A stretch of 64,000 nt of DNA, taken from Aurantiochytrium sp. KH105. Its lineage: Eukaryota > Sar > Bigyra > Thraustochytrida > Thraustochytriidae. A model generated the notes under the pieces. The model was given only the letters and a program-made list of their open reading frames with translations. It had not been told where the DNA came from and searched no databases. The position numbers were made by a program, and so were the translations under genes. Positions within the stretch are counted from its first letter, which is position 1. The number at the start of each line of letters is the position of its first letter. This document shows positions 3 through 46,343 of this stretch, in pieces. The DNA is taken from the NCBI GenBank assembly GCA_003116975.1, contig BGKB01000020.1:744001-808000 (forward strand), in the 5' to 3' direction.

Positions 3-1214
3 TTTGGCGGACTGCAGCAAGTCAAGGAGCTTGGCTTGCTTGACCTGGCGCGTTACGTACGCATGTATAGGAACTCTACAACCGCTTCAACTCCGGCACT
101 GAAAGATACCAACGAGCAAGAGCATGACAAAGATGAGAGCTCGTTGGCTCTGCAAACTTCAAATCCACGCGGGCCGCTCTCGCCGCGCAAGGGCGAACCC
201 GGATCAGTTATGCCCGAGTCCAAAACATCTGCGAGCATTGACTCCAGCAATGGGACGGGTGTGATTTTGCAGGTGCGCATGGACATGACAATTCACGCAC
301 TCTTGCTTCTGAATCAGCTCGCGAGCCAGGGCGACGCGTACCACCAAGCCATCCTCGCGGCAGACTATAGCGCGGACCTACACTACCTTCTTGGATATCC
401 GAATGCCATTGTGCGCTCAGAAACATGCAGACTCTTTGGGAAACTTTGCAAGAACTCGTCTCTCTTTTACCCAGCACTTGCGCGGAGCTTTTCGTCTGGT
501 CCGACATTGGGCAAGAACAACCCCTCGGGGTCCAAGGCGGAAAAGGGAGTCAACAATGATGTTGACCAAACGGAGTCATTGGCAGCATCTTCGTCGTCCT
601 TTTCACCGCCAGCAGCAAGTTCTCCGCCTCAAGCAACGACTTCTTCTACTTCTTCTGCTTCTACTTCTTCTTCGACACCCGCGACTACCCTTTTAGGGCG
701 ACTCGTGGCCTGTTGCCAAGACGAGGACCCAGAAACACGGAAGCTTGCGTGCTTTGCCGTGGGCAATGCTGCGTATCACTCGGACTATTTGTACAAGCTT
801 TTGGCGCCGGCCGTTCCTCTTTTGGTTCATCTTCTGAGCGACCGAGAAAAGAAAACACGTGCGAACGCTGCGGGAGCGCTCGGAAATCTCGTGCGTAATT
901 CAAGTGTTTTGAGCGCTGCACTTTTGGACGCTGACGCCCATGTTAATCTTTTATGGCTGGTTGCAAGAGACCCCGCCATTCAGCCCCAGCGTATGGCGCT
1001 CTTTTCCATGGGCAATCTTTTGGCCCACAAGGACTGTCGCGAGGCGCTTCTGGCAGCGTGTGCAAAAGACGCTGTCCCTCTGGAAGAGTGGCTGGAAGAT
1101 CTCGAAGAGTCGGCCTCAGACAAAGTTCTGCGCTCATACGCCTCGCGAGCACTCGCCAAGCTCCGTGCTGCACCTCGTTCACCACCAACGCGACCTGCTT
1201 CCATCTCTGCATGA
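3..1214 (+). CDS. ARM-repeat C-terminus of a Fused/STK36-like protein (5' partial)
   Basis: The reading frame is open from base 3 through the left edge and stops with TGA at 1212-1214, so the N-terminal part (and any kinase domain) lies outside the window. The visible ~400 residues have a Ser/Thr-rich spacer (about nt 500-690) between armadillo-type helical repeats. Segments such as CFAVGNAAYHSDYLYKLL and KTRANAAGALGNLVRNSS are what I remember as typical of the C-terminal ARM region of Fused-family kinases (STK36 in animals, TIO in plants), which act in ciliary central-pair assembly or cytokinesis. The ARM fold is clear from sequence; the Fused assignment is inference because the kinase domain is not visible. 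Other ARM proteins, such as ULK4-like ones, remain possible. Confidence 0.6.
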   Translation, partial: FGGLQQVKELGLLDLARYVRMYRNSTTASTPALKDTNEQEHDKDESSLALQTSNPRGPLSPRKGEPGSVMPESKTSASIDSSNGTGVILQVRMDMTIHALLLLNQLASQGDAYHQAILAADYSADLHYLLGYPNAIVRSETCRLFGKLCKNSSLFYPALARSFSSGPTLGKNNPSGSKAEKGVNNDVDQTESLAASSSSFSPPAASSPPQATTSSTSSASTSSSTPATTLLGRLVACCQDEDPETRKLACFAVGNAAYHSDYLYKLLAPAVPLLVHLLSDREKKTRANAAGALGNLVRNSSVLSAALLDADAHVNLLWLVARDPAIQPQRMALFSMGNLLAHKDCREALLAACAKDAVPLEEWLEDLEESASDKVLRSYASRALAKLRAAPRSPPTRPASISA

Positions 1215-1750
1215 CCACAAGTACAGCATACTTGCCATGACTTTTTTTACCTTTTTTTCTTTTTCTCTTTCTCTTACTGGCTTTTTCTTTTTGCTATTTT
1301 TTGTTTCCTTGATGACATGGCGGGCAGGGACGATGGGAAAAGGGTCCTCTGCGGGCTGGGTGTCTGGCTGGCTCATGGGACCATTCCTTGGCCACCTCAA
1401 GCCGCCTCACAAACAACTTACTCACTGACCATCGACTAAACGACTGTGGATAATGTCCCGGAACAGAACTCGAACGTAAAGAGAACGTTCCGGATGCGTT
1501 CCAAGAAAAAATCACGATGGTTTTTTTCTTTTTCTTTTCTTTTTTTGAGCGCAGCGGCGCTTGCAAAGCTCGAGCAAAAACGAATCGCAAGCGAACGAAC
1601 GTAGAAAAGCAAACAAGTCGAAGGCTAGCAGCAGCGCACCAAGACCAAGACAGAGAGACACCCATCTACGCACGCGCACAAAGTCTTGAGGCAAGTCGCC
1701 TCAGGTCGACGTTGTCAAGCTTCAAGTTGCTCGCGACAGCTCGAAGGGTG
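1215..1750. other. intergenic spacer / probable 5' UTR
   Basis: This holds T-rich tracts (1245-1310, 1517-1550) and no gene I can support. The reading frame of the next gene stays open from 1517, but the extra 78 residues begin with a run of Phe encoded by poly-T and resemble no domain, so I treat them as leader. Confidence 0.5.
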
Positions 1751-3070
1751 ATGGAAAGCCCCATGGAAACCCCGACGAGACCACCGGTGCCACCACAACC
1801 CAAACTTTTCGACAGGGAGCATCTCGCGCAAACAACTGAGAAAATGCGAGAGGAGCTCGGACAAAATGCTACGACAGACCTTGTTTCGATCTTTTCGTGG
1901 AATATTCTTGCAAACTCTATGGCCCTGACACGGCACGGCAGAATAATCTACTCCAACTGCGCTACAGAAACAGTCCCGTGGACGTGGCGCATGCCACGGA
2001 TTCTTACAGAGTTGGCGTCGGTAAAGGCCGACATCATCATGCTCCAAGAGGTCGAGCCTGAGTTTTATGCAGACCAGCTTGCGCCGCTCATGCAGGCATG
2101 TGGCTACGAGGGCGAGTACGAAATACGAAACAAGACAACAGCGAATGAAGTCGTCGCCACGATCCCGTCGTGCGCGACATTCTATCAAAGCGAGCGCTTT
2201 GCACTCGCGTGGAAAGAATTGCCCTTTCGCGGCCTTGTTCTCGGGCTGCAACTGAAGCAAGGTCCGCACAAGAATGCAATTCTCGCCATCGCAAATAGCC
2301 ACCTCGAAGGGCATCCAGAACGGACGACACATCGCCATAATCAGATTCGCTCCGTGTGGAAACGCATCGACAAGCGCCAGCCAGAGTTTATGGTTCTCGG
2401 GGGTGACTACAATGATGGGGCTGGAAGTGAGCTCTGTCGAGAGCACATGCGCGGACTTCGAAATGCATACAATGGATCTGTAGCGCGCGATGCGACCTGT
2501 GTTGTCGGCGTCAATCCCGACGCCCACAAGGATTATACTCGCGTCGATCATCTTTTTCTTGACGAGAAATCGATTGTGCTGCGCGGACTTCAAAACGTAA
2601 TGCACTCGTCTTGGGATCGTGATGCCGTGCTCGCCGCTGGACTTCCAGGTCACGTATGTCCCTCCGATCATCTTAGCATTGCTGTGGTTGCCGAACTTGT
2701 TGCATTCACGAAGCACGCGAGTGCCGCGAGAACGGAAGCGAGCGCAGACGAACCATGCGCTGCGGTATTGCTTGCTTCTTCGCCACTTTCAGAGGATCAG
2801 ATGGCGGTTTGGAAAGCGCTTCGCGAAGCAAGTCCAAGACCATCGTCGTCAGAGATAAAAGGTCTCTCGGCCGAAGAAAAGCGCCAATTGACCAAACGAA
2901 TGGGTATGGAGCGCAAGGAGCAACGTCATGCGTTTCTTGCTTCACTTGAATCGGATGAGGCGCGTGCGTTTGTGAAGCAGGTAGAATCAAAGCTAAAGCA
3001 GGAGGCCAAGGCCCAGGCCAAGATGGCCAAGCAGGCTGCGGCTGAGCGCCAGCAAACCAATGCTAAATAG
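1751..3070 (+). CDS. endonuclease/exonuclease/phosphatase family protein (CCR4/nocturnin-like)
   Basis: This is an EEP-fold Mg-dependent hydrolase, probably a CCR4/nocturnin/PDE12-type nuclease or nucleotide phosphatase. The ordered catalytic motifs are visible: SWNILAN (about nt 1898), LQEVEPEFY with the metal-binding Glu (about 2043), NSHLEGHP (about 2296), GGDYND (about 2399), the DYTRVDHLF block (about 2532) and CPSDHLS near the end of the domain (about 2658). The C-terminal ~70 residues are a charged Lys/Ala/Gln-rich helix. I chose the ATG at 1751 (protein begins MESPMETP) over the in-frame ATG at 1517, because the upstream part is poly-Phe and basic low complexity. If the longer form is used, a mitochondrial presequence is conceivable. 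The substrate (poly(A), NADPH, 2'-5' oligoadenylate) cannot be read from sequence. Confidence 0.8.
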   Translation: MESPMETPTRPPVPPQPKLFDREHLAQTTEKMREELGQNATTDLVSIFSWNILANSMALTRHGRIIYSNCATETVPWTWRMPRILTELASVKADIIMLQEVEPEFYADQLAPLMQACGYEGEYEIRNKTTANEVVATIPSCATFYQSERFALAWKELPFRGLVLGLQLKQGPHKNAILAIANSHLEGHPERTTHRHNQIRSVWKRIDKRQPEFMVLGGDYNDGAGSELCREHMRGLRNAYNGSVARDATCVVGVNPDAHKDYTRVDHLFLDEKSIVLRGLQNVMHSSWDRDAVLAAGLPGHVCPSDHLSIAVVAELVAFTKHASAARTEASADEPCAAVLLASSPLSEDQMAVWKALREASPRPSSSEIKGLSAEEKRQLTKRMGMERKEQRHAFLASLESDEARAFVKQVESKLKQEAKAQAKMAKQAAAERQQTNAK

Positions 3071-5538: not shown

Positions 5539-6867
5539 TCAGTTACCCTTCCCACTCTTCTTGGCAACAAAGCCCTTGAGCTCATCTGGTTTAATGGGAG
5601 AAAATTTGCCCGTTCTCTCGAGCTCGTGACGAAAGTACTCAATGGTCCTTTCCAGACCTGTCCGTACGTGCACCTTGGGCTCCCAGCCGAGAACCCGTTT
5701 TGCCAGCGAGATGTCTGGCTTGCGACGTGACGGATCGTCCTGCGTTGATGGCAAATGCACAATTTTGCTCTTGGTGCCTACCATTTGCACAATCATTTCT
5801 GCAAACTCGCGAATGGTGTACTCGTCAGGGTTGCCGAGGTTCACAGGACCGTCGTAGTCGGAGTTCATGAGCTTGACGAGACCAGAAACAAGATCTTCGA
5901 CATATTGAAACGAGCGTGTTTGCTTGCCGTCACCGTAAATGGTAATGTCCTTGCCTTGCAGGGCTTGAATGATAAAGTTCGAGACAACGCGACCGTCATC
6001 TGGGTGCATATTTTCTCCAAAGGTATTGAAGATGCGAGCCACGCGAATGTCGACGCCGTCTTGTTTCTTGTAAGCGTACATCATGGTCTCGGCCACGCGT
6101 TTGCCCTCGTCATAACAGGCCCGTGGGCCAGTGATGCTCACCCGGCCGTGATATGTCTCACTTTGAGGGTGAACTTCTGGATCACCGTAAACTTCGCTCG
6201 TGGAAGTCAGGAGAACGCGTGCCTTTGTTCGCTTGGCTAGACCGAGCATGTTGAGCGTCCCTTCAACAGAGGTTTTGATTGTTTTGACGGGGTTGTACTG
6301 ATAATGGGGCGGCGAGGCTGGGCACGCGAGATTGTAAATTTGATCGACTTCGATCATGTACGGATTCACGACATCATGGTGGATCAGCTCAAAGTTTGGG
6401 TGACCGATCCAGGCCTCGACGTTCTCCTTTCGGCCCGTGAAAAAGTTGTCGAGCGCGTAGACGATGTGGCCCTGGCGCATCAATCTGTCAACGAGGTGCG
6501 AGCCCACAAAGCCGGCACCGCCCGTCACAAGAATGCGTTTTTGCTGCGTTGTCAGAAGCTTTTCCGTCGGCGGGAATTGCTTGACCACGCCAGGCTGCGC
6601 GTTGATTGTGGTGATGACTCGGGTCACCTCACGATCTACCATTGAGCGCACGTGGTTCTCGAGCGCTTCGCTATTGGAGATCTCCGCGGCGATATCAATG
6701 GGCCCATGGTGAGAATCTCTTGGCAAGGGGTTGATTCTCCACAGTGCCACGGCGAGCACGGCCAAGAGCGCCATCGAGGCCTGTGCCCAAAAGGGGATTT
6801 TGCGTCCTCGTATGCTCGTCGCAGACCCAAGTCTGGCGCGAGGCCGTGACTGGTTCGGGAGCACCAT
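5539..6867 (-). CDS. UXS1: UDP-glucuronic acid decarboxylase (UDP-xylose synthase)
   Basis: It converts UDP-glucuronate to UDP-xylose with bound NAD+, supplying xylose for glycans in the Golgi. The 442-residue protein has a short basic N-terminus and one membrane segment (about residues 27-43), giving type II Golgi topology as in animal UXS1. The extended-SDR domain follows: the nucleotide-binding GGAGFVG (116-122), [10 protein letters not shown] with the catalytic Thr/Ser (221-230), and the YxxxK pair Tyr252/Lys256 in [24 protein letters not shown] and [16 protein letters not shown] are UXS-type motifs. Length and order match the family (human about 420 residues), and no catalytic residue is missing. 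The gene points away from the CHAT gene, with a 1.7 kb spacer between them. Confidence 0.95.
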
Positions 6868-8574
6868 GATCGCTATGTGGATATTCTACTACGTTTCTGC
6901 GCGGTGTCTCCCCCCGCCGCTCCGCAAGCCTACCTTGCCAAAGCGCGCGCGCGCCTTGCCGTTTTCTCGCGACTGCGTCTCGCCCGTCGAGCCGGTCAAG
7001 CTGCCGCGTCGTGCCGTGCAAGGTCGCAGCCACACACCACCACACCACGACGCCGCCGCCGCCGACGACAACGCCGCTGGACGAGCCTCTGCGCGGTCGG
7101 GCTGCCGGCCAGGCGCACGAGAGAAGCCCCGCGCTCCAGCGGCGGAGAAGAGGCGCCCCGCGATGCGTCTTTGGTGACGACGGTCTGGCTGCGCTGCTCT
7201 GCGCTGCTGTGCTCTGCGCCGACTGTGTGAGTTGATATGCGCAAGCAGGGCCGAGGGAGGCCGCCAGGACGGTGTCCGGTGACCACGGCAAGAGCACGAC
7301 TCCCGCCGATCTCGTGGTCTGCGCCGGCCTCGCTTCGGGAGGCGGAGATGGCCGCCTCCAGCGATCGGCCGCCCGGCAGGCCAGCGGCCTCGACAATCTG
7401 CGCGATGATCGATCGTTGCAGAGAAGCTGGCATGCGATGGTTGAAGGCGCGCGATAATCGGCGAAGCACCGCGCACCATGCACGCACGCTGCAGCTGCAG
7501 CTGCAGCTGAGGGAGCGAAAGATCTTGAATGACCATGAGGATAACGCGAGGCTTGCTGTGATGGCTTGCGAGTGGCGTCCGGCATGGTTCGGACTGCTGG
7601 TTCTCTTCTCCGAAAGCTGGCTGGCTTTTGCGGGACAACGCGACGAAGAAAGAGATAGGCTGAGGCCAGTCATCAACTTTCCTCTCCCTTCACTTCTAGC
7701 CGAGGCCTAGGCCTAGCAAAGATGATGACGACGACGATGAGAATGGCGTGGCAGCACGTACACATCATCATTTCTTCGCCATTCATCTCGTCTTTTCCAT
7801 CACCGTCAAGATCCATCCCCAAGTCACCCTCGTCATTCGACGGCGACACATCCAGCCAGCATCCACTCCACCACGGCATGCACGCACGCCTTCTCCTTCC
7901 CTGCACTTCGTCCAGGCACCAAACAAGACCTCCCGCCATCGGCGCCACGCCCAGCCACCCCAGAGGCAGCTGCAGCAATGACGCCTTCCTTCTCCTCGGC
8001 TCCGAGTCCCCGGGAGAGTCCCTCTCGGAGCGAGTCCCTTCCTTGCCTCTCCTCGCACATACTACTCACAGTCAGTAGACTGACTGCTCGTTAGTACTAC
8101 ACGCAGTGAGCGATAGATAGAACCAGAACAGACCAGGCGCGGTCCCGGCGCGGCACCCCTCGCTCCGGCGCCGGAGAGAGGCAAGGCTCGCAGACGGGGC
8201 CGAGCCCGCGCGGGCGGGAGGCGGCGGCAGTCCCCTTCCTTCGCTCGCTCGCAGGCGCGGCGGAGCGCAGAGCAGCGCAGAGCAGCGGAGAAGCGGCGCA
8301 TTGCGCATTTTCGCAGCCCATCGCAACTCCGCCGCGAGGACTCGCGGCGCCGGCCGCGCGGAGCGGCGCGCGGCGCGCGGCGCGCGAGCGCGAGCGCGAG
8401 CGAGCCCGAGGCCGCGCGCCGGCCGGCGGGCCGGCCGGCGGCAGGCCCGCGCGGCCGCGCGGCGAGGGTCGAGGCCGGATTTGAAATTTTCCGTGGCGCG
8501 AGCGGCCTCGATCGACTCCGGCCAGACGCACGAACGACCACGCCGGCCACGCCGCGACGCCTGCGCTTGGCGGG
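6868..8574. other. long divergent spacer between UXS1 and the CHAT gene
   Basis: About 1.7 kb lie between two divergent genes. I see no gene. The open frames here are GC-rich low-complexity shadows. Visible structure includes a GCTGCA-type palindromic repeat near 7488-7509, a CCTAGGCCTAGG stretch near 7700, and a very GC-rich block (8200-8560) just ahead of the CHAT gene start, probably its 5' UTR or promoter. Confidence 0.6.
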
Positions 8575-11484
8575 ATGCACGCGCACGCGCACGCAGACGC
8601 GGAGACGGACGCGGAGGCGGTCGCCGCGGTGCCGTCGACGCCGACGCTGGCGCCGAAGGCGATGTCGTCGTGGATGGCGGCCGACAAGAAGGAGGGCGAA
8701 GACGAGGACGAGAACGAGGAGGACGAGGAGGGCCCGCCGCAGCTCTTTGCGTTTCTGTACGCGTCGCCGCTGACGCAGCGGGGCCAGGACGGGAGCTCGG
8801 AGGAGACCGCTGAGGAGGAGGAGGAAGTCGAGGGCCTCGATGTGATCCGCGAGGCCGAAGACCTCAAGCACATTTTCGAGGACAAAGGCCAGGCGCTCTC
8901 GATCAGGGTCGAGGCCGCGACGCGAGAGTCCCTGCGACGCACGCTGCAAGCCAAGGGCGTAAAGTGCGCCGCCGAGGTCCTCCACTTTACGTGTCACGGA
9001 CTCCCCGACGGCTTCCTTGCACTCGAGGACAGCGCCGGTCAGCTCGACAGGCTGAGCGCCTCGGACCTTGAGGCCATGCTGGACAGAGACCGCATGCCCG
9101 ATGTTGTCTTTGTGAGCGCCTGCTTTTCGCATCCCATTGGTGACATATTCGTTCAGGCTGGCGTCAAGCACGTTGTGGCCGTGCGAAGAGACTCGAGAGT
9201 TGCGGATCAGGTGGGCAGAGACTTTGCCAAATTCTTCTATGACCGTCTCGTGTCTGGAGATACGGTGCAAGATGCCTTCGATTACGCCCAACAGTGTATT
9301 CAGCTCACGCCCGGAAAAGACGACGCGTGGCGGACACGTCAAGAGAAAAAGTTTCTTCTTTTACCAAAGCAGGGCGTCGACCACGCGGTTCCCGTCTTTG
9401 ACCCGGGGCGAGTCGGAGAGGTTCGGGACGAGACGCCGCCGCCGACTATTAATTCGTGTCGTCGCATCACAAGTCGTGCCATCGGGCGCAAGGTGATTAT
9501 GCAGCGAATCGTGCAAGTGTTGGCAGCACAGTCTATGCCATCTGCGCAGCCGCGCCAATCTGCGCCCTCGCGCTGGCTCACCATTTGCGGCGCCGAGGGC
9601 ATTGGCAAGACGACTTGCGCTATCGCGGCGTGCAATTTTCTCAGCAAACGGAGACACTGCAAGGGCGTCTGCTATGTGCCTCTTGTTAGAGATTCTGGTG
9701 CAAGAGGCGTGCTACGGAGCGCCAGTGAAGCGCGGGCGACCTTGGTCGAGGCCTTTTGCACGAGCGGCCCAAGAGCCCTCTGCGCCGCAGATTCAGAACC
9801 TGCTCTTTTTGCAGGTCTCAATGCTATCACCAGTGAATTCGAAGCGTACCCGGGCAATCTCATCGTCCTTCTCGACGGTTGTGAGCAGTGGGCAGGGAGG
9901 GACCGCTCAGCGGCATCGTGGACGGCGCTCGCGGGATTCATACGCGACCTTTTGGTCGCGTGTCCGCACGTGGCAGTACTATGTACGAGTCGCAATGCAA
10001 TAAATTCCGAGAGTCCGTCTGCGGGCGTGTCTGCGTCATCTTCGTTTCTTAGCGCAAGTGTTTGGAATGCCAGTGCTCAGGGAGTTGCAGGGAGCTTGGC
10101 CGATGCTGCTCTTCAGGAATCTGTTTTGGAAGTGAGCGAGCTCAGCGCACAATACGCTGCGCAGCTTCTTTTGCATCTGAGCCCTCGATCGCTGACTGAG
10201 GTTGAGGTAATGGATGGAGTGGCGGGCGGACACTTTGCAAAACTTAGCAGTCGTCAACGACTCCAGGCGCTCGCCAGCCATCGCGTCGTGCGTGAATGTC
10301 GAGGCCATCCCATTGTAATTGGGCAAGTTGCGGAAAACTTACACAGCCAGCATCTTCATGATTTGTCTAACTTTGCGCGAGGTGCCGCGCGCACCTTTTT
10401 TGGTACCGATCTTACGTCGCCAATGCGACCTGCTGTCCCGATGGCGCCTTCTTCAAGCGTGCGAAGGCAGACGCCCTCCGCGCCAAGCATGCAAATGCAG
10501 ACGCCCTCCGCGTCAAGCCTGCAAGTGCAGTCGCCCTCTGCAGCACCGTCTCTGCTCGCATCTCGGAACATGGCTGTGCCGAACTCCGCGCTTGGCCGCG
10601 ACGGCGCCAACGTGGGTGGCTTTGCGGGGCCTTCAACGAGCTGTTTGCAGGCCCGGTTCGGCGTGCCGACGGCGTCCTCGTCGTCGTTTGGATCGACGCA
10701 GTCGTCTTCTTTCTCAACCGTGTCGGCCTCTTCGGACGAGGACTGGGCTCGTTCATTGGTGAAAACTGCCTGTGCGAGAATCTCCGTGCTCGTTCGACCC
10801 GATGATGCGGACGCACAGTGGTCCGCCGTTCTCAAATCAACCGAGGAGATTCTGCCCGAGGCGCTGTACAAATATCCAAGTATCAATCGCAAGTTTTCCG
10901 AACAGGACCTCGCGCGCCTACGCGCTGTGTATGAACGAATTGCTGGGTCCGGCCAAGGTCGCGCGCAGAAGCCTGTAAGGGATGTTGTCAAGGCCTTTGC
11001 AGCCTGGCTTGAGGCCTCAACAGCCTCGCTATTGAGCAACAGCGAGTACTGGAACCAGGGTGTCATCTTTGGGCTCGTCTCCAAAGAGCAGGTCAACGAG
11101 ATACTCTTGTCTCGGTCCTCGGGGACGTTTCTCATTCGAATAAGCGAATCTGTTCCAGGTAATTTGGCCGTGGCCTACGTGGTGGCAGCACCATGCGGCA
11201 CGTCTCGTCGCGTTGTGCACTCATTGGTTGTACCCGGGCGTGATGGGGGCGTCTCGCTCGAGTTCAGGAATGGACGCAAGCGCTTCGAGTCCCTCGGGGC
11301 CTTTCTGCTTGCGCACGACATCTTTTGCCACCTTTGGCCGGACAGAAACAAGAAAGAGGTTTTGCAAGCGGTCTTTTCGTCGATGGCGGTGTCGTCAGCA
11401 GCAACATCGTTTTCGGCCTCGCATGGGCGACTGCCCTCGGCTTCGGCCATGAATTCTCCGCGGTCGCTTGCTTCGGTATCATGA
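8575..11484 (+). CDS. CHAT protease - NB-ARC-like NTPase - STAT-type linker/SH2 fusion protein
   Basis: This 969-residue protein has three readable modules. (1) CHAT caspase-like protease, about residues 55-270: the His motif LHFTCHGLPDG (His141) and the Cys motif VVFVSACFS (Cys183), followed by the family-typical AGVKHVVAV strand, so the dyad is intact. (2) STAND/NB-ARC-like NTPase, about 300-600: P-loop GAEGIGKTT (339-347), Walker B LIVLLDGCE (429-437), sensor-type VAVLCTSR (466-473) and CRGHPIVIG (575-583), matching the GLPLA position of NB-ARC. (3) After a Ser-rich linker, about 800-935: YWNQGVIFGLVSKEQ, the linker/SH2 junction typical of STAT proteins, then GTFLIRISES with the phosphotyrosine-binding Arg855. 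No STAT coiled-coil or DNA-binding domain and no C-terminal Tyr are present. It probably acts as an inducible protease or signalling receptor. Domain calls are by motif; the role is inference. Confidence 0.8.
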   Translation: MHAHAHADAETDAEAVAAVPSTPTLAPKAMSSWMAADKKEGEDEDENEEDEEGPPQLFAFLYASPLTQRGQDGSSEETAEEEEEVEGLDVIREAEDLKHIFEDKGQALSIRVEAATRESLRRTLQAKGVKCAAEVLHFTCHGLPDGFLALEDSAGQLDRLSASDLEAMLDRDRMPDVVFVSACFSHPIGDIFVQAGVKHVVAVRRDSRVADQVGRDFAKFFYDRLVSGDTVQDAFDYAQQCIQLTPGKDDAWRTRQEKKFLLLPKQGVDHAVPVFDPGRVGEVRDETPPPTINSCRRITSRAIGRKVIMQRIVQVLAAQSMPSAQPRQSAPSRWLTICGAEGIGKTTCAIAACNFLSKRRHCKGVCYVPLVRDSGARGVLRSASEARATLVEAFCTSGPRALCAADSEPALFAGLNAITSEFEAYPGNLIVLLDGCEQWAGRDRSAASWTALAGFIRDLLVACPHVAVLCTSRNAINSESPSAGVSASSSFLSASVWNASAQGVAGSLADAALQESVLEVSELSAQYAAQLLLHLSPRSLTEVEVMDGVAGGHFAKLSSRQRLQALASHRVVRECRGHPIVIGQVAENLHSQHLHDLSNFARGAARTFFGTDLTSPMRPAVPMAPSSSVRRQTPSAPSMQMQTPSASSLQVQSPSAAPSLLASRNMAVPNSALGRDGANVGGFAGPSTSCLQARFGVPTASSSSFGSTQSSSFSTVSASSDEDWARSLVKTACARISVLVRPDDADAQWSAVLKSTEEILPEALYKYPSINRKFSEQDLARLRAVYERIAGSGQGRAQKPVRDVVKAFAAWLEASTASLLSNSEYWNQGVIFGLVSKEQVNEILLSRSSGTFLIRISESVPGNLAVAYVVAAPCGTSRRVVHSLVVPGRDGGVSLEFRNGRKRFESLGAFLLAHDIFCHLWPDRNKKEVLQAVFSSMAVSSAATSFSASHGRLPSASAMNSPRSLASVS
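10465..10555 (+). repeat. 30-bp in-frame tandem repeat in the CHAT gene linker
   Basis: Three imperfect copies of a 30-bp unit encode ten-residue repeats of the type QTPSAPSMQM. They lie in the disordered linker between the NTPase and the STAT-like SH2 module. The reading frame is kept. Confidence 0.8.
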
Positions 11485-12135
11485 TAATGAAAACTACGAC
11501 CATTCAAGTCAGCAAGGCTTACGGATTGGCTTGCGGGCTGGGGAGGCAAAATGCAAAAAAGGGTGGAAGGATGCTGTGAGAGAGGAGATCTGACTTGGTC
11601 AAGGTATCGGCTGAAAGGTGTCCACGCCCGACAACAATGGGTGCGAGAAGCGGTGCGGCGGCGAAGTGAGAGAGTGCTTCCAGCTGAATGATTGGGCATT
11701 CGTGAGTTCGTATTTTCGAAACAAAAGTAGGGGGAAATTCAACAAAAACGTATGAAGCGATGAATCGGAAGACAACGAAGGCACCCCGCCTCGTTTGTGG
11801 CCGCCACGAAGCAAGATGAAGCGCAAGATGAAGCGAAAGAAGAAGATAAAGGATGATTTTTTTTTAAAACTGCGATCTGTGTGTGTGTCTTCCTCGTAAA
11901 AAGAGTGAGTCTTGAGACAGGCGTCTGTTCGTTCGTTCGTTCGTTTGTCCGTCCGTCATACAGAGTTAGTTAATTGATTGGTTGATTGATTGTAATCGCA
12001 ACTGCAACAACAAGCTTGACCACCAACGTGGCAAGAAGATTTTCTTACAACTTGCGGCAGGCAGGCAGGCGTGCAGGCAGGCAGTGTAGCAGCTCGCTTT
12101 TTTGGTTTCAACGAAAAAGTACAGGCATCACATTT
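11485..12135. other. convergent intergenic region
   Basis: About 650 bp lie between the stops of the CHAT gene and the Ctf4 gene. They contain short tetranucleotide runs (GTTC near 11925-11950, TTGA near 11970-11990, GGCA near 12057-12083) and an A-rich tract near 11840-11870. No gene is seen. Confidence 0.6.
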
Positions 12136-15100
12136 CTACAGCCGGCGACGTTTCGACGCACTCGTTGGCTTCTTTGGCTTGGTCGAGAGAGCTTCTTGCG
12201 TAAATGTGGATTGACGGTTGAGCTTGGGAGTGAGAACCGGAGCCTTTTTAAAGGCGGACATGATGCTCTGGCCATTCGCACTAGTTTCCGTGTTCTCCGA
12301 GGCCTTCTTGGAGAGAGCAAAGGGATTCCGCTTCTTTTTCATCTGCGTTGAAGGCGAGGACATCTCGCTCGCGAGCACGGGCGGATCCGAGGTTGCCTCG
12401 GACGATCCAGGAGAGCTCGCGACACTCGCGGACGAGGCGTTGACGCGGTGTTTAATCTTAGACCTGCGATCGTCCTCATAGCTTGCCTCGCTGCGAAGAT
12501 CATCCTCACTGTCAGAGGGTTCCTGAATCGAAAGTGTGCGGAGCGCCGAGGCAGGGGCCTGGGCAGCAAGGCGTTTACGCATTTTGTTCACAGGCGTCCG
12601 CCGTTGTCGCTGGCGCGTCTCTGTGGGCTCGACGACGCCAAACTCGGCATCGTCCCCAGACATATCATCGTCTTCTTCGCCATCCTCATCCGACGACGAG
12701 GCGTCGTCGCCATCATCTTCGGCCAGACGGGCAGCTTGCTCGCGAATAGCAATAAGTCGCTCGATGCGCTGGAGCAGATTGAGGTCAGCGCCAGCCTGCT
12801 GAGCTTGCTGGTGCGCAATTTGGAGCGAGCGGTCCAGGCGAAGACGCTTGACGAGGCCAAAGGCTCGCGCGCTGCGATTGAGCTTTACTGCAAGGATCAT
12901 GTGCTTGAGCACGCCGGCGTCGAGCTGGGCCTCGGCCTCGAGCAGCTTCTGATCGCCAAGACGAAGGGCATCCACGTCTGCCGTAGTGTCTGGAATCGCC
13001 TTTGCGACCCACTTGAGCTGCTCCAGCACAAGGTGAGAGCGCACCGTCTCCTCCTCGAGCTTGTATTTAAGGCTTCCTGTGGACAAGTTGAGCCCAGCAA
13101 GGGGGACAGAAAGGTCGAACGACGTAAGGACCGGCCGCGGGTAAATTTCCGGGAAGCCGGCATGAGCACCCTTGCCCTTGAGCAAGATTCCATTGAGTTT
13201 GCCAAGCTGAATGCTCACAGGCCAGAGCACGTCATGCTTGGAGCGTCGCAGCGTGTTTTCGTCCAGGACCGGGACCCAATTCCAGGCAACTGCCTTGGAC
13301 AGGACCATGAGCGTGCCCTTGGAGTCCATGCAGGCGGGCATGAATCCCATGGATTTATCACAAAGACCAACCCATTTGAGCGGCTTGGGCTCCCCATGGG
13401 GCATGGGCAGACGTCCACTGGCCGCAATGCTAGTAATTCCGCCTCCGGCCGCGCCCTCAACGCCGACATCGATGAGCTGGAAACCCATATACTGCGTGCC
13501 ATCCGCGCTTGGGGCACCCGTGTGGTACACCACGAACAAAAAGACGCCGGCGCCCGACATGGAGAGAATGGGACCAGGGAGCACGAGAGGGGCCTCTTGG
13601 AGACCACTGGGGCGGAAGATTCGCAAGGTACGCCGGTTTGTAGCCACCGCTGCGAAAGATGCGCCAGCAGCCACGGCGCGCGCCTTCTCGCTCACCGGCA
13701 GCCTGGCGGTCCAGTCCGCATTATTGGAGCGCGAATCGAACGACTTGTAAAACAATGTCGAGCATGTACCGTAGCGTGCCTCCATGCGGTCTGCCAGCGT
13801 CGAATTCTTTGACGTGGCACCGCCCAGTAACTTTTCAGGAGCCACACCAGCGGCGTCAGCTTGCTCGGCAAGATCCATGTATGTCTGGAGGAGACCGTGC
13901 TCGCTTTGCCTTGCGCGAAGCTCCTCCTGCATGTCGTCCTCGGGAAGACCGGGGTCCCAGTCCGTATCATCACCATTCTTTCTCGAGGTCGCAGATGCGG
14001 GGCCCTTGGAAGGGTCGTTGCTCGAGCTTCCGTAGGACTGGGCGAGTGAGCCACTGTTCGCCTCTCCAAGCTCACCTGGCGTGGCAAAGAGAGCGCCGCT
14101 CTCTCCGAGGGCAGCCATCGTGAACCCATAATGGTCGGAGAAGCGTACGCGGCGATGATCAACTGTGTTGGCAAAGTCAATCTCGACCGAGTTATGCGTT
14201 TCTTCCGTGCGAAGGGTAACGCTTCCTACCGAGTTCCAGGCGAGAAATCTGCGCTCCTCCGAGTCGGGCGTTGCACTCGGCATGAGTACGCCTTGTCTCT
14301 GGAATTGCGCCGGCTGAGCGTCCTCGATGGCACGCTTGATGCGGGCGTCGAGCTGTTGGCTGGAGACAAGCCCCCCTGCGCTTGTGGGTCCGCCGTAGAG
14401 ACCGGTTCCTTCATCTTGGTCATCGAGGTCGTCGTTCATGTCGAGCTCATCTCCCATGTGATGATCATCGCCATCGACGCTGTCCACATCGCCAGCTTCC
14501 TTGTTTCCATCGATGTTGTCCTCGCCGTCCTCTTGACTGGAAGCCTGTTTTTTAGAACCTCCTCCTTCCGCGTTGTCCGCAGTTTGTTCCTTGTCGCCTG
14601 CAATTGACTTTTCAGACTCGATCTGGGTGCCGGACTCTTTGGAGGAAGAAGAAGAAGAAGAAGAAGAAGTCGGGGTGTTTAGCGCGTCATCGAGACCCTC
14701 GGGAATGAGGCTGGCAAACCAATGCACATTACCATCCATGGATAGCGCGAGAGCCCCGCGACGGCGCGACGGCCAGACGATACGTTGTACAGGGCTGGCG
14801 TATTGGTTCGCAATAGACGAAAGGTCAAATTTATCAAGACGCGTGCCTGCATCGGCGTTCTTACGGGTGTCGAGGAGACGAATCTCGCCACGCGCGTTGG
14901 CAAAAAGCAGGTAGACACCATTCGGAGACCATGCCAACGCGGTGGGAACGGTCTCCTTCTTGGCGCTTCCGGAACCCCCACACGGTGCCATAATCTTTTG
15001 CGACCACGTATCACGCGACAATAGAATGATACCTTCGGCCGCTGTGAGCGCGAGCACCTCTCCAGAGGTTTCCCAGGCGAGCTGCACGGGCTCAGTCTTG

Positions 15101-15931
15101 TCGGGATCCTCGACAGTATCAGCCAAAGTGGTGCCGCGTGCAAGCTTTTTCAGCGCCTTGCTGTCGGGTACGGACCAAATGATGACCTGACCGTTTGTAG
15201 CTGCGGAAGCCAAAAGATCCCCTTGTGGAGCCCATGAAAGAGCTTTGACGGCGGCCGAGTGGCCCTTGAGCTCTTTGAATGCAGCAGGCTTTGCGAGTTC
15301 GATGACGCGAATTACATTTTCGTCCAGAGCAACAGCAAGGTGTTCGCCATTTGGGCTAAAGGAGACATCGCGAATTGGACCCGGCGCGCGGTGCAGCAGT
15401 TCCTTGAGCTCGCCAGAGGGTGAGCGAACAAGACGCACCTGGCCGTTTTTGGCCCCGCAGGCGACCAGGTCGCCTGCAGGATGCACGTCAACGCAGAGGG
15501 CGTCTTCGATCTCCACAAGATCCTTTTCGACTTCGCGCTTGTTGACGTCGAGCAGTCGTACGCCGAGCGAGCCCGCTGCAAAGGCGTGCGAGGCGTCCGA
15601 GCTCACTGCAAGACCTGCGCGGCCGGGCGGGAGGACAACTCGCGAAACGTGCGCTGGTTGCTTGTCCGAAGGCTCACCAAAGATGGCGCTGCCCTTTGCC
15701 TCGCGAGAGCTCTCCATTTCCTCGCCAACGTCTAGCGTCTCCATAATATCGGCATCCTCATCGTTGTTGGCGGAGTTGCTCTTGTTGTTCGGGCTTTGCA
15801 CGGTGGTCTCTGGCTGCGTATTGTTCATCTTTCTGCCAATCTGGTCGCTCTCCTCGTTATCGTTCTGGCTCTGCGACATTTCGAGGGCGTCATCTGCGTC
15901 GAGCTCTTGCTGCATGGCGAGCATCTCAGCA

Positions 15932-15973
<42 letters not shown>

Positions 15974-16419
15974 CCGTGGACGACGTTGTAACTGGTAGAC
16001 TCGTTATGATCGTTGGCTTCGTCTTCATTTTCGTCGTTACTGCTCCGTTGCTGTTTCTTCTTGTCCGCGTCGCTCTTGGTCTTGGCTACAGTTACGAGGT
16101 CCTCAACCTCGTCGTCGATCTCGTCATCATCGCCTTGGCTCTGGGACGCAAGGACCTGCTGTGTGGCCTCCATCGAGGTGTCCTCGAGATCCATCGCATG
16201 CATGCTGTTTTGCGTTTCCTCGAGCAGGGTGTCCGGGATGGCTGAGGCGTCTTGAGACGCCTCAACGGCGTCTTGTGACTCCGGGATCGCCGCGTCCTGC
16301 ACCTCTGTCGGCGCGAGATCGGTGGCCTCCTTGACGTTGGTCTGCGAGGCTGCTTGCACGTCCGGGTCGAGCGTCGCCGCGGACCCGACGGAGAGCTCGT
16401 CGTCGTCGTGCTCAACCAT
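12136..16419 (-). CDS. WDHD1: Ctf4 / WDHD1 (AND-1) replisome adaptor
   Basis: Ctf4/WDHD1 is a trimeric hub linking the CMG helicase to DNA polymerase alpha and other clients at replication forks. Visible here: an acidic N-terminal extension of about 250 residues with an uninterrupted Asp tract; a WD40 propeller starting near residue 265 (GHSAAVKALSWAPQGDLLA and VSFSPNGEHLAVALDENV are WD blades); a second acidic linker; then the SepB/Ctf4 central beta-propeller and helical region (STLFYKSFDSRS, LPVSEKARAVAAG and later PLKWVGLCDKSMGFM) with a helical C-terminal bundle; and a basic tail ending in KRRRL that looks like a nuclear signal. I see no HMG box, unlike vertebrate WDHD1, so it is closer to fungal Ctf4. 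I chose the ATG at 16419 (MVEHDDDE), ten codons inside the longest frame (16449). It is long for the family because of acidic insertions. Confidence 0.85.
15931..15974 (-). repeat. trinucleotide repeat encoding poly-Asp in Ctf4
   Basis: An in-frame run of CATCGT-type triplets on the + strand encodes about 14 consecutive Asp residues on the - strand. It lies in the acidic N-terminal extension and is probably length-variable. Confidence 0.9.
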
Positions 16420-16930
16420 GGCGGCCCGCTCCGGTCCCCGTTTCCGCACCTCTCGCTCCCGCTGCTCGAGCGAGGGCTAGGTTCTGGCTGGGACGCGAGA
16501 GGAGAGCGGCAAACTCCGGCGCTGCGTGCGCGTGCGCGTGCGCGTGCGCACGTGACGTCGCTCGCGCCGCGACTGATCGACCGATCGATCGCTCGCGCGC
16601 TTGCTCGCTCTGTCGAAGAAGCAATCAATCGACTTTGCCGTCTCGTGCTCGAACTCCAAGTGGTCGTTAGGCGAGGCTCGAGCCTAACGACGAATTTGAA
16701 TTGGGGGTTGCGCTCGCGTCAGATCTCCCAGAAGTTCCAGAGGGTACAGACAGGAAATGCAGGAACTCGCTGGCAAACTCTGGCTCGACGCGATAAGCAT
16801 GGGACCCAGAGGCTCAGCACCTTCTCATTAGCGTTTTCTGCAAGTTGAGGTGGGCAAAGAATAAAGGAAAAAATGTTAGAGAGAACGGGATGGGATACAG
16901 GGATGCCAGGAAAGAGAAACAAGTGAAAAA
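16420..16930. other. spacer between the Ctf4 start and the EGF-TM gene end
   Basis: About 510 bp. It contains a GTGCGC alternating purine-pyrimidine run (16520-16548) and a CGATCGATCG run near 16576-16592. It presumably holds the Ctf4 promoter. No gene is seen. Confidence 0.5.
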
Positions 16931-38881: not shown

Positions 38882-41800
38882 TCAGCAGATCTCCGTGAGC
38901 CATTCGGAGAAGTCAGTATTGGCCAGAGAGACGGCGACAGGGCCCACTGAAATGGCAGACTCGCCCGAAGAAGGAACGCGGTCACCATCGGCGGAAACCT
39001 GCACATCCATGAGTGGGTCCACCACGGACATGTGCGACATGCCAAAGTCGTTCTCGTCAAAGATGGACACCGAATCAGGATCCGAACCGACGCCGACGTC
39101 TTGGGCCTCGGCAGCCGCAACAGCGGCTGCGACGGCCGCCGCGGCAGTTGCGTCGTCCGTGACCGGGTCGTCGAAAAAGCTTGCGCTCGACGAGTCCGAA
39201 ATCTCTCGCTTCATGTCCAAGAGCTGCTGCACCTCCTCGTTGCTAGCAGCCGCGCTCGTGAGACTCGAAACGCTCTTGCTGTCATCATCCAGGGAAAACA
39301 GGGCGCGCTCCGTGTCGTCAGCAAGCAAAAATGAGTTCCACCCCGGCGAATCCGGAATGGAACATTGGTCGAGATCGCTCACGATGCTCGACGAAGACAC
39401 TGGTCCAGTGAAGCCGCCCTTGAGAGGCGAGGCTTCGAAGGGATCCAATGGCAAAAAGGGCAACGAACTTGCGCTCGCGCTCGCGCGAATAAGGGAGGGC
39501 CCGCGCGTCGCCTTGGGGGTCGTCAAGATTGACGGATGCAGAGGCTGCAGCGGCTGCGGCTCCGGCTTCATTTGCGGAGTTCTCGGCGCGCTCACAGACG
39601 TCTCGGACCGAGGAAGGTTCGAAGCCGCCGCAGGGTTCTGCACTTGCGTGCGCGAGTTGAGCGCCTGCGGGGGGTGTTGCTGGCGAGGAGGAGGGGGGAC
39701 GCCAGAAACTTTCTTGCGGCGCTTTGGGCACGCGCTGGCTTGAACGGCAGCCATCTTCTTCTTTTTGTTGTTAAGGTCCTTGGCGGATTGTACGCTGCAC
39801 GAACTCGGGCCGCGCGACATGACAACAGGACCCACCTTGGTGCGATTCGCGAGCGCGGCCGTTGTTGCTGTTGTTGTTGTTGCGGCGGCAGCTTTGGCCG
39901 CCATTTGAGCAGAAGGCGCCATGGGCGGGATGGGCGCGACGGACGGCTTGGCGTTGGCCGTGGCAGCGACTGCCGTGGCAGGCCCGCTCTTATTGCCATT
40001 CGCCAGGGCACTTTTGGCAGCCACGGGCACCACAGTGGCGTTGCTGGTCGCCGACGTTGTGGCTGCGCTCGTCGAGGCGGTCGCCGAAGAGGCAACGCTA
40101 GATGCCATCTTCTTGACACGTTGCTGTTCAGTGTGCCAGACCCTAATGCACAAATCGCGGTCCACCACGCCGGCAATGATGGGCTTCATAACAGACGTGA
40201 TGGGGTGCGGCATTTGGTTCGGGGCAACGCGTCGGGGCGCGAGATCGGGGCGCGCGAGCGAAGAGCGCGCGACCGGAACGTCGCGCGCACGCGCAAGATG
40301 CACATTGCCGAGCATCTCCTCGATTGTCGTCGGGGGCTTGACCACAAGGTGCTCAATGCTGGCGGTCCGGGTCCGCAAAAGCTGCGCGACCTCTTGCACA
40401 CGCATGCGCAAGTCTTCGAGGTACCAGCGCTCGAGACAGAGAGTGAGATGGCCATTGTGTTGTGCGCGATGGCGTTGCCAGCACTCGGAGCAAAAGACGG
40501 CGGGGCGCGACCGGAGGACCTTTCGCAATTCCTGAGGGACCGCAGCGGGAATTGGGCCCGGCTTGGCGGCGGCGGCAGCAACAGCAGTCGTCGCATGAGC
40601 CGAGGCCTTGCTTTTGTCGACCGCGACGCCAGTCTTGTCCGGCGTCGAAACGTTCTGCGGCTGCTGCTGCTGCTGCACGGGCGGGCGTCCTTGGACAGGA
40701 GGTCCACCCATGGGACGCGCAGTCTGCGCCGCAGCGGCATAACCAGGGCGTGCGGCGACGGGGTAAGCGCCAGGACGCTGTTGCTGCATGTGAGGGTGGG
40801 GTTGACGCGCTTGCGTGGGTCCGCCAGCCCATTGAGGACGAGAAGGCTGCGAAGACATGCCAGGATGTGAACGTGCTTGCGGGTGCATTCCCACGTGACT
40901 CATGCCCGGACGCACCCCGGCATGACCACCGAGGACACCAGACATGCGGCAGGGGTTTGCGACGGCATTGGCAATGGCACAGGCCGAGGATGAGGAGCGC
41001 GCCATGTGGTCGTCCTTTCCAAGAGGGCCACCAGGCTTGCCATATGCCATACCATGCATGCCAAGAGGAGGGCAAGGCGGGAGAATCTTGCCACCAGGAA
41101 AGCTGCCACCCACGAGCTCGCGCCAGGTGGCAATGGAATCCGGCGAAGTGCCAAGCATCTCAGCCTCTTGTTCGGAGCATGAAAAGACCACGTTGCTGCG
41201 GACCGCCGCGGGCGAGCTGAGTCCGTTCCGGCGCTTGAGGACTGTCTTGGTGGTGCCATCGAGCTGTACCGTATAAAAGCCATGACCACTCTTTGTGACG
41301 GTACCGATCTGGCCCGAGTCGTTGACAATGACACGACTATCTACACGGAGCCAAGTAGGAACGGGGGATCGAGGCTTTCGCCTCGAAGCCGTCTTCTTTT
41401 CGGGTCCTGCAAGAGTATTGATCTTGCCTAGGCTCGATTTATGAGCCATGGCCCCGTTAGACATGCCCGGACGATGCATGCCCGGTGCCATCGTGCCAGT
41501 CCCCATGGGTCTATGCATGCTTGAGTTCGCCATGACAGGGCGTGCATAGGTCGAGGAGGATGCCGTGGAGGCGGTGAGAGGAGGACGCTGTCCACCAGGA
41601 AGCATGGTCTTGGACGACGCGTTCATCGGACCCGACATACCGGGGCGCTGCTGCTGCTGCTGCGGCTGTTGTTGGCGCTGCACCTCGGCCTTGAGGGCAG
41701 GTTCGCTCTTGACCGAAGTGCTGGAGCCTCCATTGCATCCTGAAGTTGGCGCGGAGGAAGAGGAAGATACAGTGCGTACAGGTTCACCAGGCTCGCTTCT

Positions 41801-44800: not shown

Positions 44801-44882
44801 CGGTGCCGACGCGCCAGAAGATACGACGACGCTTGATGCATGCTGTGGCTTGCGTTGCTGCGTCAGCGCCTGCTGAGGTTGC

Positions 44883-44922
<40 letters not shown>

Positions 44923-45181
44923 GCTGCTGTTGCTGCTGCTGCGGCTGCGGCTGCGCGAGCGTTTGCTTCGGAGCGGCCGCCTGTTGCTGGTGCTGGTGGT
45001 GGAGAGGCTGCTTGACGTGCGTCATGGGCGCCTCATGCTCCCCGGCGGTAACCGCTTCGACCATGGTGTCTTTGGCTCCGCACTGCTGCTGCTGCTGCTG
45101 CTGCTGCGCGGGCAGCGCCCTGCGCACGACGAGCGACTTGCGCGCGGCGGCGGCGTCCTCGGCCGCGCAGGGCCCAGGCAT
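38882..45181 (-). CDS. UTX/KDM6-like JmjC protein with apparently lost iron ligands
   Basis: A 2099-residue single-frame protein. The N-terminal ~400 residues are poly-Gln, Pro, Ser, Thr and Ala low complexity. Residues ~426-990 follow the order of the catalytic C-terminus of UTX/KDM6: DFPKVNSTSFVRVLG; NWKLQRLELQKLPECIRF; then LSIKETG, RYRTFSINHGPGQEEWGAV (GPG at 810-812), GIPVMYGLLQRKELVGISPG and TVFWTMARGDMVSSSWNF; and a C-x2-C ... C-x2-C zinc-finger-like block (HCEDCHRELF, FYCSTCDC) as in the UTX C-terminal domain. The HxE iron ligands expected before SIN and the distal His (here Phe871) are absent. A KOW/Tudor-like segment (VNDSGQIGTVTKSGHGFYT, ~1280-1325), another Cys/His cluster and an acidic C-terminus follow. 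It is probably a chromatin-associated pseudo-demethylase or scaffold. Confidence 0.75.
44879..44945 (-). repeat. CTG-rich tract encoding poly-Gln (UTX-like protein)
   Basis: GCTGCTGTTGTTGCTGCTGC-type triplets encode more than 20 Gln residues on the - strand. A second, shorter run lies at about 45082-45107. Confidence 0.9.
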
Positions 45182-45864
45182 CCGCGCGGTTTGTTTGGCG
45201 GCTCTGCTCCGTGTCTCCCCTCCTCTATTCTATCCTGCGCGCGTTTCCGCCGCTTGAAATGGAATGAAATGTAATCGCCGAAATGGGTGATGGAGAGACA
45301 AGGGGAGAAAGGAGGCGCGAGCGAACGGGGCCCGCGAAGGCGGAGAGGGGGAGGGAGGGAGGGGGAGAGAGGGATGGAAGAAAGACGCGGGGAGGGGGGA
45401 GAGAGGGAGAGAGGTGGAGGGCGCGGAAGGTGCGGCCGCGAAGAAAGAAAGGGAGGAAGGAAGGAAGGAAGGAAGGAAGATAGGAGGAAGTGAGAGAAGA
45501 AAGAGGTTTTTTTTGGTTTTTTTTTCCTGTGTCCTCTTTCCGTCTTTCTCGCTTTTTTCCTTTTTTCCTTTTTCTTTTTTCCTTTTTACTTTTCTTTTAC
45601 TTTTTCAAAACGTGCAATTGCAATCCTTCCCTTCCCTTCTCTCGCGGACGCCACGCCTCGCGTCGCGCTGCACCGCGCTCGCCGGTCGCACGCGCACGTG
45701 TGCCTCGCCCACCGGCCTGCCTGCCTGCCTGCCTGCCTGCGTTGCTGGCTCGCCGCGGGCTGCGCTGGCGCCTCCGCCTGCAGGCCGGCGCCTCGCCGGG
45801 TCCGTCAGGCTGCGGCGCGGCTCGGGCGCGCTCGTGTTGGGGGTTTGTTTCTTTCTTTACTTTT

Positions 45865-45935
45865 TCTTTCTTTCTTTCTTTCTTTCTTTCTCTCCCTTTT
45901 TCTCCTTTCTTTCTTTTCTTTCTTTTCTTTCTCTG
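45865..45935. repeat. (TTTC)n pyrimidine tract
   Basis: A polypyrimidine run of TTTC/TTCT units, partly interrupted, in the gene-poor region upstream of the UTX-like gene. Confidence 0.9.
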
Positions 45936-46343
45936 CGTGTCTGTTTGCTCCTGCGCAAGAGTAGTACTACTGGCAGATAGATGACGCCTCTGAAGGGACT
46001 ATGCAGGGGCCAGTAAGTAAGTAAGCCGCCACCTCATGAATGGACAGTAGAGGCGATGTACGTCACGCTATGTTATCTTATGTTACAATGTAGAGTGGCA
46101 CGTTATGGATGGACGTAGGGATGCACGCACCGCGACGCAACGCACAAGCGAGCGCCCGAGCCCGGGCTCGCCGCCTGCGCCGCGCCCATCAGCGGCAGCG
46201 CGCAGCTCCGCCTGGCGAGGCCTTGCTTGCCCGGTCCGATGTCTGCCCTTGGCTTGCCTTGGCTTGGCTTGCCTTGGCTTGGCTTGGCTTGCCTGTGGCT
46301 CGTGCGTCGGAAGCGAGCATCGCCTCCTCAACCCAGACGCCAC

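Follow-up and report, generated by a model that had tools for sequence, protein, structure and literature searches.

A 64,000-nucleotide stretch of the thraustochytrid Aurantiochytrium sp. KH105 (assembly GCA_003116975.1, contig BGKB01000020.1, positions 744,001 to 808,000), here called the window, raises the question of whether a caspase-like CHAT protease, a STAND/NB-ARC-type NTPase and a STAT-type linker-SH2 are parts of one protein and, if so, what such a protein would do. The window gene lies on a contig (C20) of the 76-Mb assembly. The presence of the three modules in one gene, proposed in a first-pass annotation of the DNA letters, is backed by sequence profiles and fold search, by a relative known from a transcript record and by conservation between alleles. 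The best explanation of the window protein is a CHAT-NLR-like switch with a STAT-type linker-SH2 in place of the usual repeat sensor, a reading that the sequence comparisons favour with a probability of roughly 0.55. CHAT-NLR proteins are already known. A STAT-type SH2 within one is absent from the literature searched: no text pairs 'SH2 domain' with 'CHAT domain', and none joins CHAT, STAND NTPase and NB-ARC, with most subscription journals outside the scope of that search.

The three modules of the window protein

The Pfam CHAT profile (PF12770) matches residues 90-247 of the window protein with an E-value of 5.8e-14 (52.6 bits against a cut-off of 24; profile positions 106-271 of 289). In a Foldseek search with the structure model (mean predicted local distance difference test (pLDDT) score 65.4, predicted TM-score (pTM) 0.49, 8 alignment rows), the first five rows are chains of the SAVED-CHAT protein 8tl0 (E 2.9e-09 to 1.9e-08). 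The intact dyad seen in the first-pass annotation is present: in the family-profile alignment, His141 pairs with a His, and Cys183 with a Cys, of the solved 8tl0 structure. The CHAT domain is a predicted protease with an intact dyad.

At the C-terminus, the Pfam SH2 profile matches residues 832-907 (E 1.9e-05, 25.1 bits against a cut-off of 21; profile positions 3-70 of 77). The single-sequence phmmer comparison with Dictyostelium STATa gives an E-value of 1.9e-07, and the family profile reaches 4.9e-18 over the linker and SH2 together. Fold search also places this region with STAT linker-SH2, as had been proposed (1uus, E 3.0e-04 across 173 columns). The sequence EYWNQGVIFG (residues 824-833) marks the boundary between linker and SH2. 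The succession of WNxGxIxG and GTFLIRISES with its phosphotyrosine-pocket Arg is confirmed at Arg855. The family alignment has seven rows from five clearly different proteins, the paralogue described below included; the other two, the second allele and the database protein P0001, are almost the same sequence as the window protein. The S-E-S run at residues 857-859 is invariant in all seven rows, the paralogue included. The last tyrosine of the window protein is residue 868, within the SH2 domain, and no tail tyrosine follows the domain. The residue just after the SH2 is Trp921 in the window protein, Tyr in P0002 and the paralogue (733), Trp in P0003 and Phe in P0004.

The description of the middle module as an NB-ARC-like NTPase holds in part. 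The P-loop, the Walker B strand, a sensor-like LCTSR (residues 469-473) and a GxP-type motif are all present, but the Pfam NB-ARC cut-off is missed and the model has no winged helix after the helical part, where the last helix (residues 597-609) is followed by disorder (611-721). A winged helix is part of typical NB-ARC switches. The window protein scores below the Pfam cut-offs for NB-ARC (16.6 against 23.5), AAA_16 (16.5 against 32.6) and NACHT (14.7 against 26.7). Among its relatives, P0004 passes the NB-ARC cut-off (28.0), P0002 (15.2) and P0003 (11.9) fall below it, and the AAA_16 cut-off is passed by P0003 (37.3) and by the paralogue (47.1 bits). P0002, like the window protein, also stays below the AAA_16 and NACHT cut-offs. 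An eight-row family profile matches the plant NLR At5g66900 (E 1.4e-05) and the STAND protein AfsR (E 3.7e-04); RecA, ComA and ClpB are also matched, with weaker E-values than the plant NLR. These profile matches suggest the STAND kind, though not on their own. The Foldseek matches of the NTPase are to general AAA+ proteins with large root-mean-square deviation (rmsd) and are not used for the NB-ARC claim.

Alleles and relatives

Every CHAT and SH2 match in the genome has a near-identical counterpart on another contig, as a diploid would give. The second allele of the window gene (C121, L020:5243-8161) aligns over all 969 codons, with a four-codon length difference in the acidic N-terminus. 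The two alleles differ by 48 synonymous and 33 nonsynonymous changes, for an overall ratio of nonsynonymous to synonymous rates (dN/dS) of 0.22. By part, dN/dS is 0.41 in the N-terminus, 0.12 in CHAT, 0.27 in the NTPase, 0.42 in the Ser-rich stretch and 0.05 in the linker-SH2. Among the large parts of the gene, CHAT and the linker-SH2 are best kept, on small counts (2/7 and 2/14 changes nonsynonymous, respectively). The start codon is uncertain, and a later Met (e.g., residue 30 or 34) is possible. PADLOC and NCBIfam scans of the window protein list no families.

Searches for the family in a set of 5.8 billion proteins scored the 8000 candidates with the most words in common and found five different proteins among them (P0001 to P0005); further members may exist. 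P0002 (972 amino acids; also in JGI) carries an MMETSP transcript name marked complete. P0003 (868 amino acids) and P0004 (707 amino acids, starting within CHAT) are JGI proteins. All three have CHAT, NTPase and linker-SH2 in the order of the window protein, and all three retain the dyad, the P-loop Lys and the SH2 Arg. The domain order is present outside the window gene, and P0002, a relative's transcript record rather than reads of the window species, runs through all three modules without splitting the frame. The distant P0005 has CHAT and an AAA_16-like NTPase, Cdc37-C above cut-off, a weak TPR match and no SH2 match, and is taken to be bacterial.

P0001, from the thraustochytrid stramenopile Hondaea fermentalgiana, is 92-96% identical to the window protein and is named "STAT A". 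Its model lacks residues 439-735 (297 residues), a stretch that is open in the window and present in P0002. By eye, the model starts about 1.8 kb upstream, where the sequence is antisense to the start of the epimerase gene. The name conceals a CHAT protease, and the present analysis corrects this public record.

A pseudo-protease paralogue

The SH2 search of the genome gives 10 places, which are five domains in two copies each. Two of the five belong to a tandem-SH2 protein; the others belong to a protein that by eye resembles Spt6, to the window gene and to a gene of 773 amino acids on contigs C178 and C74. The last (L025:2910-5228) is a paralogue of the window gene with a CHAT-like N-terminus, a P-loop NTPase and an SH2 (24 bits). 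Pfam lists no CHAT in it up to E 1. Aligned with the four-row family by hhalign, it matches over CHAT and NTPase with a probability of 99.6% (E 8.1e-24), and BLASTP gives a match from CHAT to the P-loop (E 3e-09) and another over the linker-SH2 (E 7e-07). The paralogue model (mean pLDDT 60.0, pTM 0.39) matches 8tl0 at E 4.2e-05, at rank 11 behind AAA+/STAND proteins; this fold match is not independent, as the input alignment of the model included CHAT rows. NOD2 and CED-4 are among the 50 matches listed for the model, with large rmsd.

At the dyad positions, both alleles of the paralogue read LHFVGSG and VFVSAQG, so the catalytic His and Cys are lost. The P-loop and the SH2 Arg are retained. 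The dN/dS between its alleles is 0.147 overall and 0.06 in the CHAT-like part (2/13 changes nonsynonymous). Because the dyad is lost in both alleles and dN/dS is low, the paralogue does not look like a decaying pseudogene but like a maintained pseudo-protease. Among the best 8000 candidates scored, its sole database match is Hondaea P0008 (100% over 79% of the query). It is a candidate pseudo-protease partner of the window protein.

The tandem-SH2 gene (L023:3058-5154 (+), allele on C43) encodes 699 amino acids with tandem SH2 (68.9 bits) and Cbl_N3 (27.4 against a cut-off of 25).

Origin of the CHAT-NTPase core

A scan of bacterial and archaeal genomes with two short patterns gives 18 matches, two of which are relatives; both are from Chloroflexota. 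Over the core the two share 97% identity, and they match residues 58-478 of the window protein at 30% identity (E 4e-24 and 3e-23). The complete one, L035, is an EAD7-CHAT-NB-ARC-TPR protein; the other, L034, is cut by the end of the fetched stretch, and the domain scan covers L035. In the NCBIfam and PADLOC scans, the paralogue and L035 have weak NTPase matches or TPR. Core identity to the Chloroflexota proteins is 27-31% for the four SH2 proteins, 30-32% for two other thraustochytrid cores and 26% for the paralogue. Among viral contigs, 13 pattern matches include no confirmed relatives.

In a tree of 10 cut-out cores, three groupings are firm: the window protein with P0002 (100/99), these two with P0003 and P0004 (99/98), and the two Chloroflexota proteins (100/100). 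P0005 and the paralogue are joined at 51/59 only and are flagged as long branches, and for this reason no origin is claimed for the paralogue. The core is of bacterial kind, and the Chloroflexota protein shows it as a ready-made CHAT-STAND unit. Most simply, these sequences suggest a CHAT-STAND unit of bacterial type that was paired with various sensors, in one branch with the STAT-type linker-SH2.

The CHAT search of the genome gives 8 places, which are four genes in two copies each: the window gene, a separase-like gene (L022, named by eye) and two CHAT-NTPase genes, L019 and L021. L019:3250-6543 (-), with an allele on C194, is a frame of 1098 amino acids that has EGF_Teneurin above cut-off and, by eye, a hydrophobic membrane-like stretch; it continues with CHAT (63.7 bits) and an NTPase and ends soon after the GxP part. 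The layout resembles that of a membrane receptor whose CHAT-NTPase lies in the cytosol. Beside this gene, on the opposite strand, a frame at 271-2649 (+) of 793 amino acids resembles by eye a DDE transposase of the mariner/IS630 kind. L021:162-6920 (+), with an allele on C33, encodes more than 2250 amino acids, its start lying outside the fetched stretch; its LRR matches are weak, under the cut-off, and precede a C-terminal CHAT (32.7 bits) and NTPase. On L027 (C295) and L028 (C64), frames of 1148 and 1209 amino acids have NB-ARC just above cut-off, with no CHAT or SH2 match on these contigs, and so would be a further pair of STAND-type proteins.

Phosphotyrosine signalling and gasdermin in the same genome

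A SAM-kinase with the motif HRDIAARN is encoded on C15 and C247 (L029, frame to 2028 (+)). HRDIAARN is the tyrosine-kinase form of this kinase motif in the consulted text of PMC3019232. The evidence is one HRDxAARN-type pattern at two places, taken as two alleles, with none in the reversed control; other kinases might be intron-split or carry other motifs. L029 is a candidate for a true tyrosine kinase of the thraustochytrid. Protein tyrosine phosphatase (PTP) domains are found at 12 places at E up to 0.001, four of them strong (104.8 to 210.9 bits) and the other eight at about 25 bits. Candidates for both writer and eraser of phosphotyrosine are thus present in the same genome.

The Pfam gasdermin profile has no match in the genome up to E 1; divergent gasdermins would escape this search, which has no positive control, the only match among 14 control genomes being E. 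coli, below cut-off. A gasdermin partner was set aside within the reach of this Pfam search.

Comparison with known systems

The window protein shares an N-terminal CHAT and a STAND/NB-ARC-type NTPase in one chain with fungal CHAT-bearing NLR-like proteins, as far as these are described in the consulted portions of the fungal reports. The fungal proteins there end in WD40, TPR or ANK, whereas the window protein ends in a STAT linker-SH2 and its genome has no Pfam gasdermin. Its C-terminus also separates it from tripartite NLRs, in which superstructure repeats take the C-terminal place. Its CHAT-NTPase core is 29-30% identical to that of the Chloroflexota CHAT-NB-ARC proteins, with the same motifs, but EAD7 and TPR of L035 are absent from the window protein and L035 has no SH2. 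With SAVED-CHAT (8tl0) it shares the CHAT fold and the aligned His and Cys; that protein has a SAVED sensor for cA3 and is described, in the consulted part of its report, as a fusion without NTPase or SH2. With Dictyostelium STATa (1uur/1uus) it shares the linker, the SH2 and the phosphotyrosine Arg. Unlike STAT proteins, it has no coiled coil, DNA-binding domain or tail tyrosine that could be found, and it adds a protease and an NTPase.

In animals, caspase-like proteases, NLR-type switches and STAT-type SH2 domains serve immunity and cell death in separate proteins; this protist joins all of them in one chain. If the proposed reading is true, the window protein would be a simple, testable case of a caspase-like protease that phosphotyrosine switches directly. 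It would also show a bacterial-type conflict unit fitted with a eukaryotic reader, and would inform what a STAT-type SH2 can do without STAT transcription.

Proposed mechanism

In the resting state, the NTPase would be closed and the protease would show no activity. Once a tyrosine kinase has marked a partner protein (a receptor, adaptor or bait), docking of the SH2 on it would concentrate molecules of the window protein. The NTPase would then swap its nucleotide and oligomerise, and the CHAT domains, brought together, would cut a substrate. For STAND proteins, a closed ADP form that passes to an open ATP form and then assembles is described in the consulted text on MalT (PMC4381067). With its last tyrosine at residue 868, the window protein most likely uses its SH2 to read the phosphotyrosine of another protein and does not form a STAT-style reciprocal self-dimer. 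The paralogue could enter these assemblies too and regulate them without cleaving; it has a tail tyrosine, and the two proteins may bind each other STAT-style.

The output may be cell death or regulated cleavage. In the parts of the fungal reports consulted (PMC12881547, PMC10197012), some fungal NLR-like proteins begin with a CHAT protease module, some of the genes for these are clustered with gasdermin genes, and a TPR-bearing CHAT protease of Podospora activates a gasdermin. In SAVED-CHAT, the sensor binds cA3 and immunity runs via a proteolytic cascade, according to the consulted part of PMC11229360. By analogy, we infer that phosphotyrosine may gate the window protein, which would be a receptor in immunity or cell death. 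A further step is possible and is put forward tentatively, at less than even odds: a one-protein path from a tyrosine kinase signal to caspase-like proteolysis, built from a bacterial-type CHAT-STAND unit and a STAT-type reader, with the dead-protease paralogue as a built-in regulator. Caspase-8 and its inactive relative cFLIP are a parallel to such an active/dead protease pair. We know of no other NLR-like protease gated by phosphotyrosine in cis.

Alternative explanations

Two alternatives concern the identity of the protein. Adjacent genes might have been joined by read-through, by assembly error or in a spurious frame, and the differing Hondaea gene model is the sole point in support. Such an artefact, or a split into separate genes, is unlikely because three database proteins, one from a complete MMETSP transcript record, share the domain order. 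In addition, the second allele aligns over the whole frame with low dN/dS, and among 300 first-order Markov sequences (model: 8000-12000) the longest ATG frame has a mean of 188 and a maximum of 417 amino acids, far below the 969 observed; almost no weight is left to this explanation. The protein could also be a protist STAT-like transcription factor with CHAT and NTPase as accessories, since the linker-SH2 is clearly of the STAT kind and the Hondaea relative carries the STAT A name. That name belongs to a model that skips residues 439-735. The best STAT match to the window protein starts only at the linker (STATa chain 268-415), and no STAT domain is among the 9 Pfam families listed for it. 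Across the genome, STAT_bind has nothing above cut-off (one match, 16.5 bits against 27; no positive control), and no tyrosine stands beyond the SH2. Membership of the STAT family was rejected on the missing coiled coil, DNA-binding domain and tail tyrosine, and a STAT-like factor is very improbable.

The other alternatives concern input and output. The SH2 might be an intramolecular or phosphoserine-type scaffold, as is the SH2 of Spt6, with the switch triggered otherwise (by the Ser-rich stretch or a direct NTPase ligand). Residues 611-721 would offer phosphoserine sites, and phosphotyrosine signalling seems sparse in related oomycetes: for Phytophthora infestans, the consulted text of PMC3019232 counts two tyrosine kinases, and four SH2 proteins that it deems plausible. 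The invariance of Arg855 and S-E-S across the family and the encoded PTPs and motif-level tyrosine kinase speak against a scaffold, which we regard as unlikely. Somewhat more weight, still short of a likely outcome, goes to a CHAT that acts in cleavage outside death and immunity (developmental or stress proteolysis, for example) or chiefly as a platform. CHAT has a relative in the cell cycle, separase. The gene is conserved with low dN/dS, shows no immune-type expansion (2 CHAT-NTPase-SH2 genes among the best candidates scored) and lies in a genome with no Pfam gasdermin in a search with no positive control. On the other side, fungal CHAT-STAND fusions and the CHAT of bacterial gasdermin systems are tied to conflict and cell death in the consulted text of PMC12881547 and PMC10197012.

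Further points weigh against a phosphotyrosine-gated CHAT-NLR-like switch, beyond the gasdermin result. The model is of moderate confidence and its domain arrangement is tentative, and without a winged helix in the model the ADP/ATP gating of the NTPase may differ. The identity of the putative tyrosine kinase comes from its motif alone. A tyrosine-tail partner may still exist within the family, given the Tyr after the SH2 in the paralogue and P0002. Both flanking frames that were scanned resemble housekeeping genes, so the position of the gene suggests no partner.

Feature coordinates and composition

Table 1. Features of the window gene and its two flanking frames (window positions; residues of the window protein).
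Feature	Position	Strand	Basis
Whole frame, CHAT–STAND NTPase–STAT-type linker-SH2	8575..11484	+	969 amino acids + stop, uninterrupted
Acidic N-terminus, predicted disordered, residues 1-56	8575..8742	+	pLDDT <50 at residues 1-52
CHAT caspase-like protease domain (predicted), about residues 58-280	8746..9414	+	Pfam, Foldseek
Catalytic-type His141 (HFTCHG)	8995..8997	+	aligned to His of 8tl0; kept in 3/3 of P0002-P0004
Catalytic-type Cys183 (FVSACFS)	9121..9123	+	aligned to Cys of 8tl0; kept in 3/3 of P0002-P0004
STAND/NB-ARC-type NTPase, nucleotide-binding domain and helical part, about residues 295-610	9457..10404	+	family profile, model
P-loop GAEGIGKT, residues 339-346	9589..9612	+	alignment
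Walker B strand LIVLLDG, residues 429-435 (L433-D434)	9859..9879	+	alignment
GxP-type motif GHP, residues 577-579	10303..10311	+	core alignment
Ser-rich predicted disordered stretch without tyrosine, residues 611-721	10405..10737	+	pLDDT <50
STAT-type helical linker, about residues 722-826	10738..11052	+	profile 592-739 aligned to STATa chain 268-415; model helices
SH2 domain, about residues 827-920	11053..11334	+	Pfam, Foldseek
Phosphotyrosine-pocket Arg855 (GTFLIRISES)	11137..11139	+	invariant in 7/7 alignment rows
C-terminal tail without tyrosine, residues 936-969	11380..11481	+	tyrosine list
NAD-dependent epimerase frame, flanking	5539-6867		domain scan
WDHD1/Ctf4-like gene, flanking	12136-16449		domain scan

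Elsewhere in the window, positions 44001-46000 have a strong AT skew of -0.295 and a GC skew of +0.155 and lie partly within a frame of 2099 amino acids at 38882-45181 (-).

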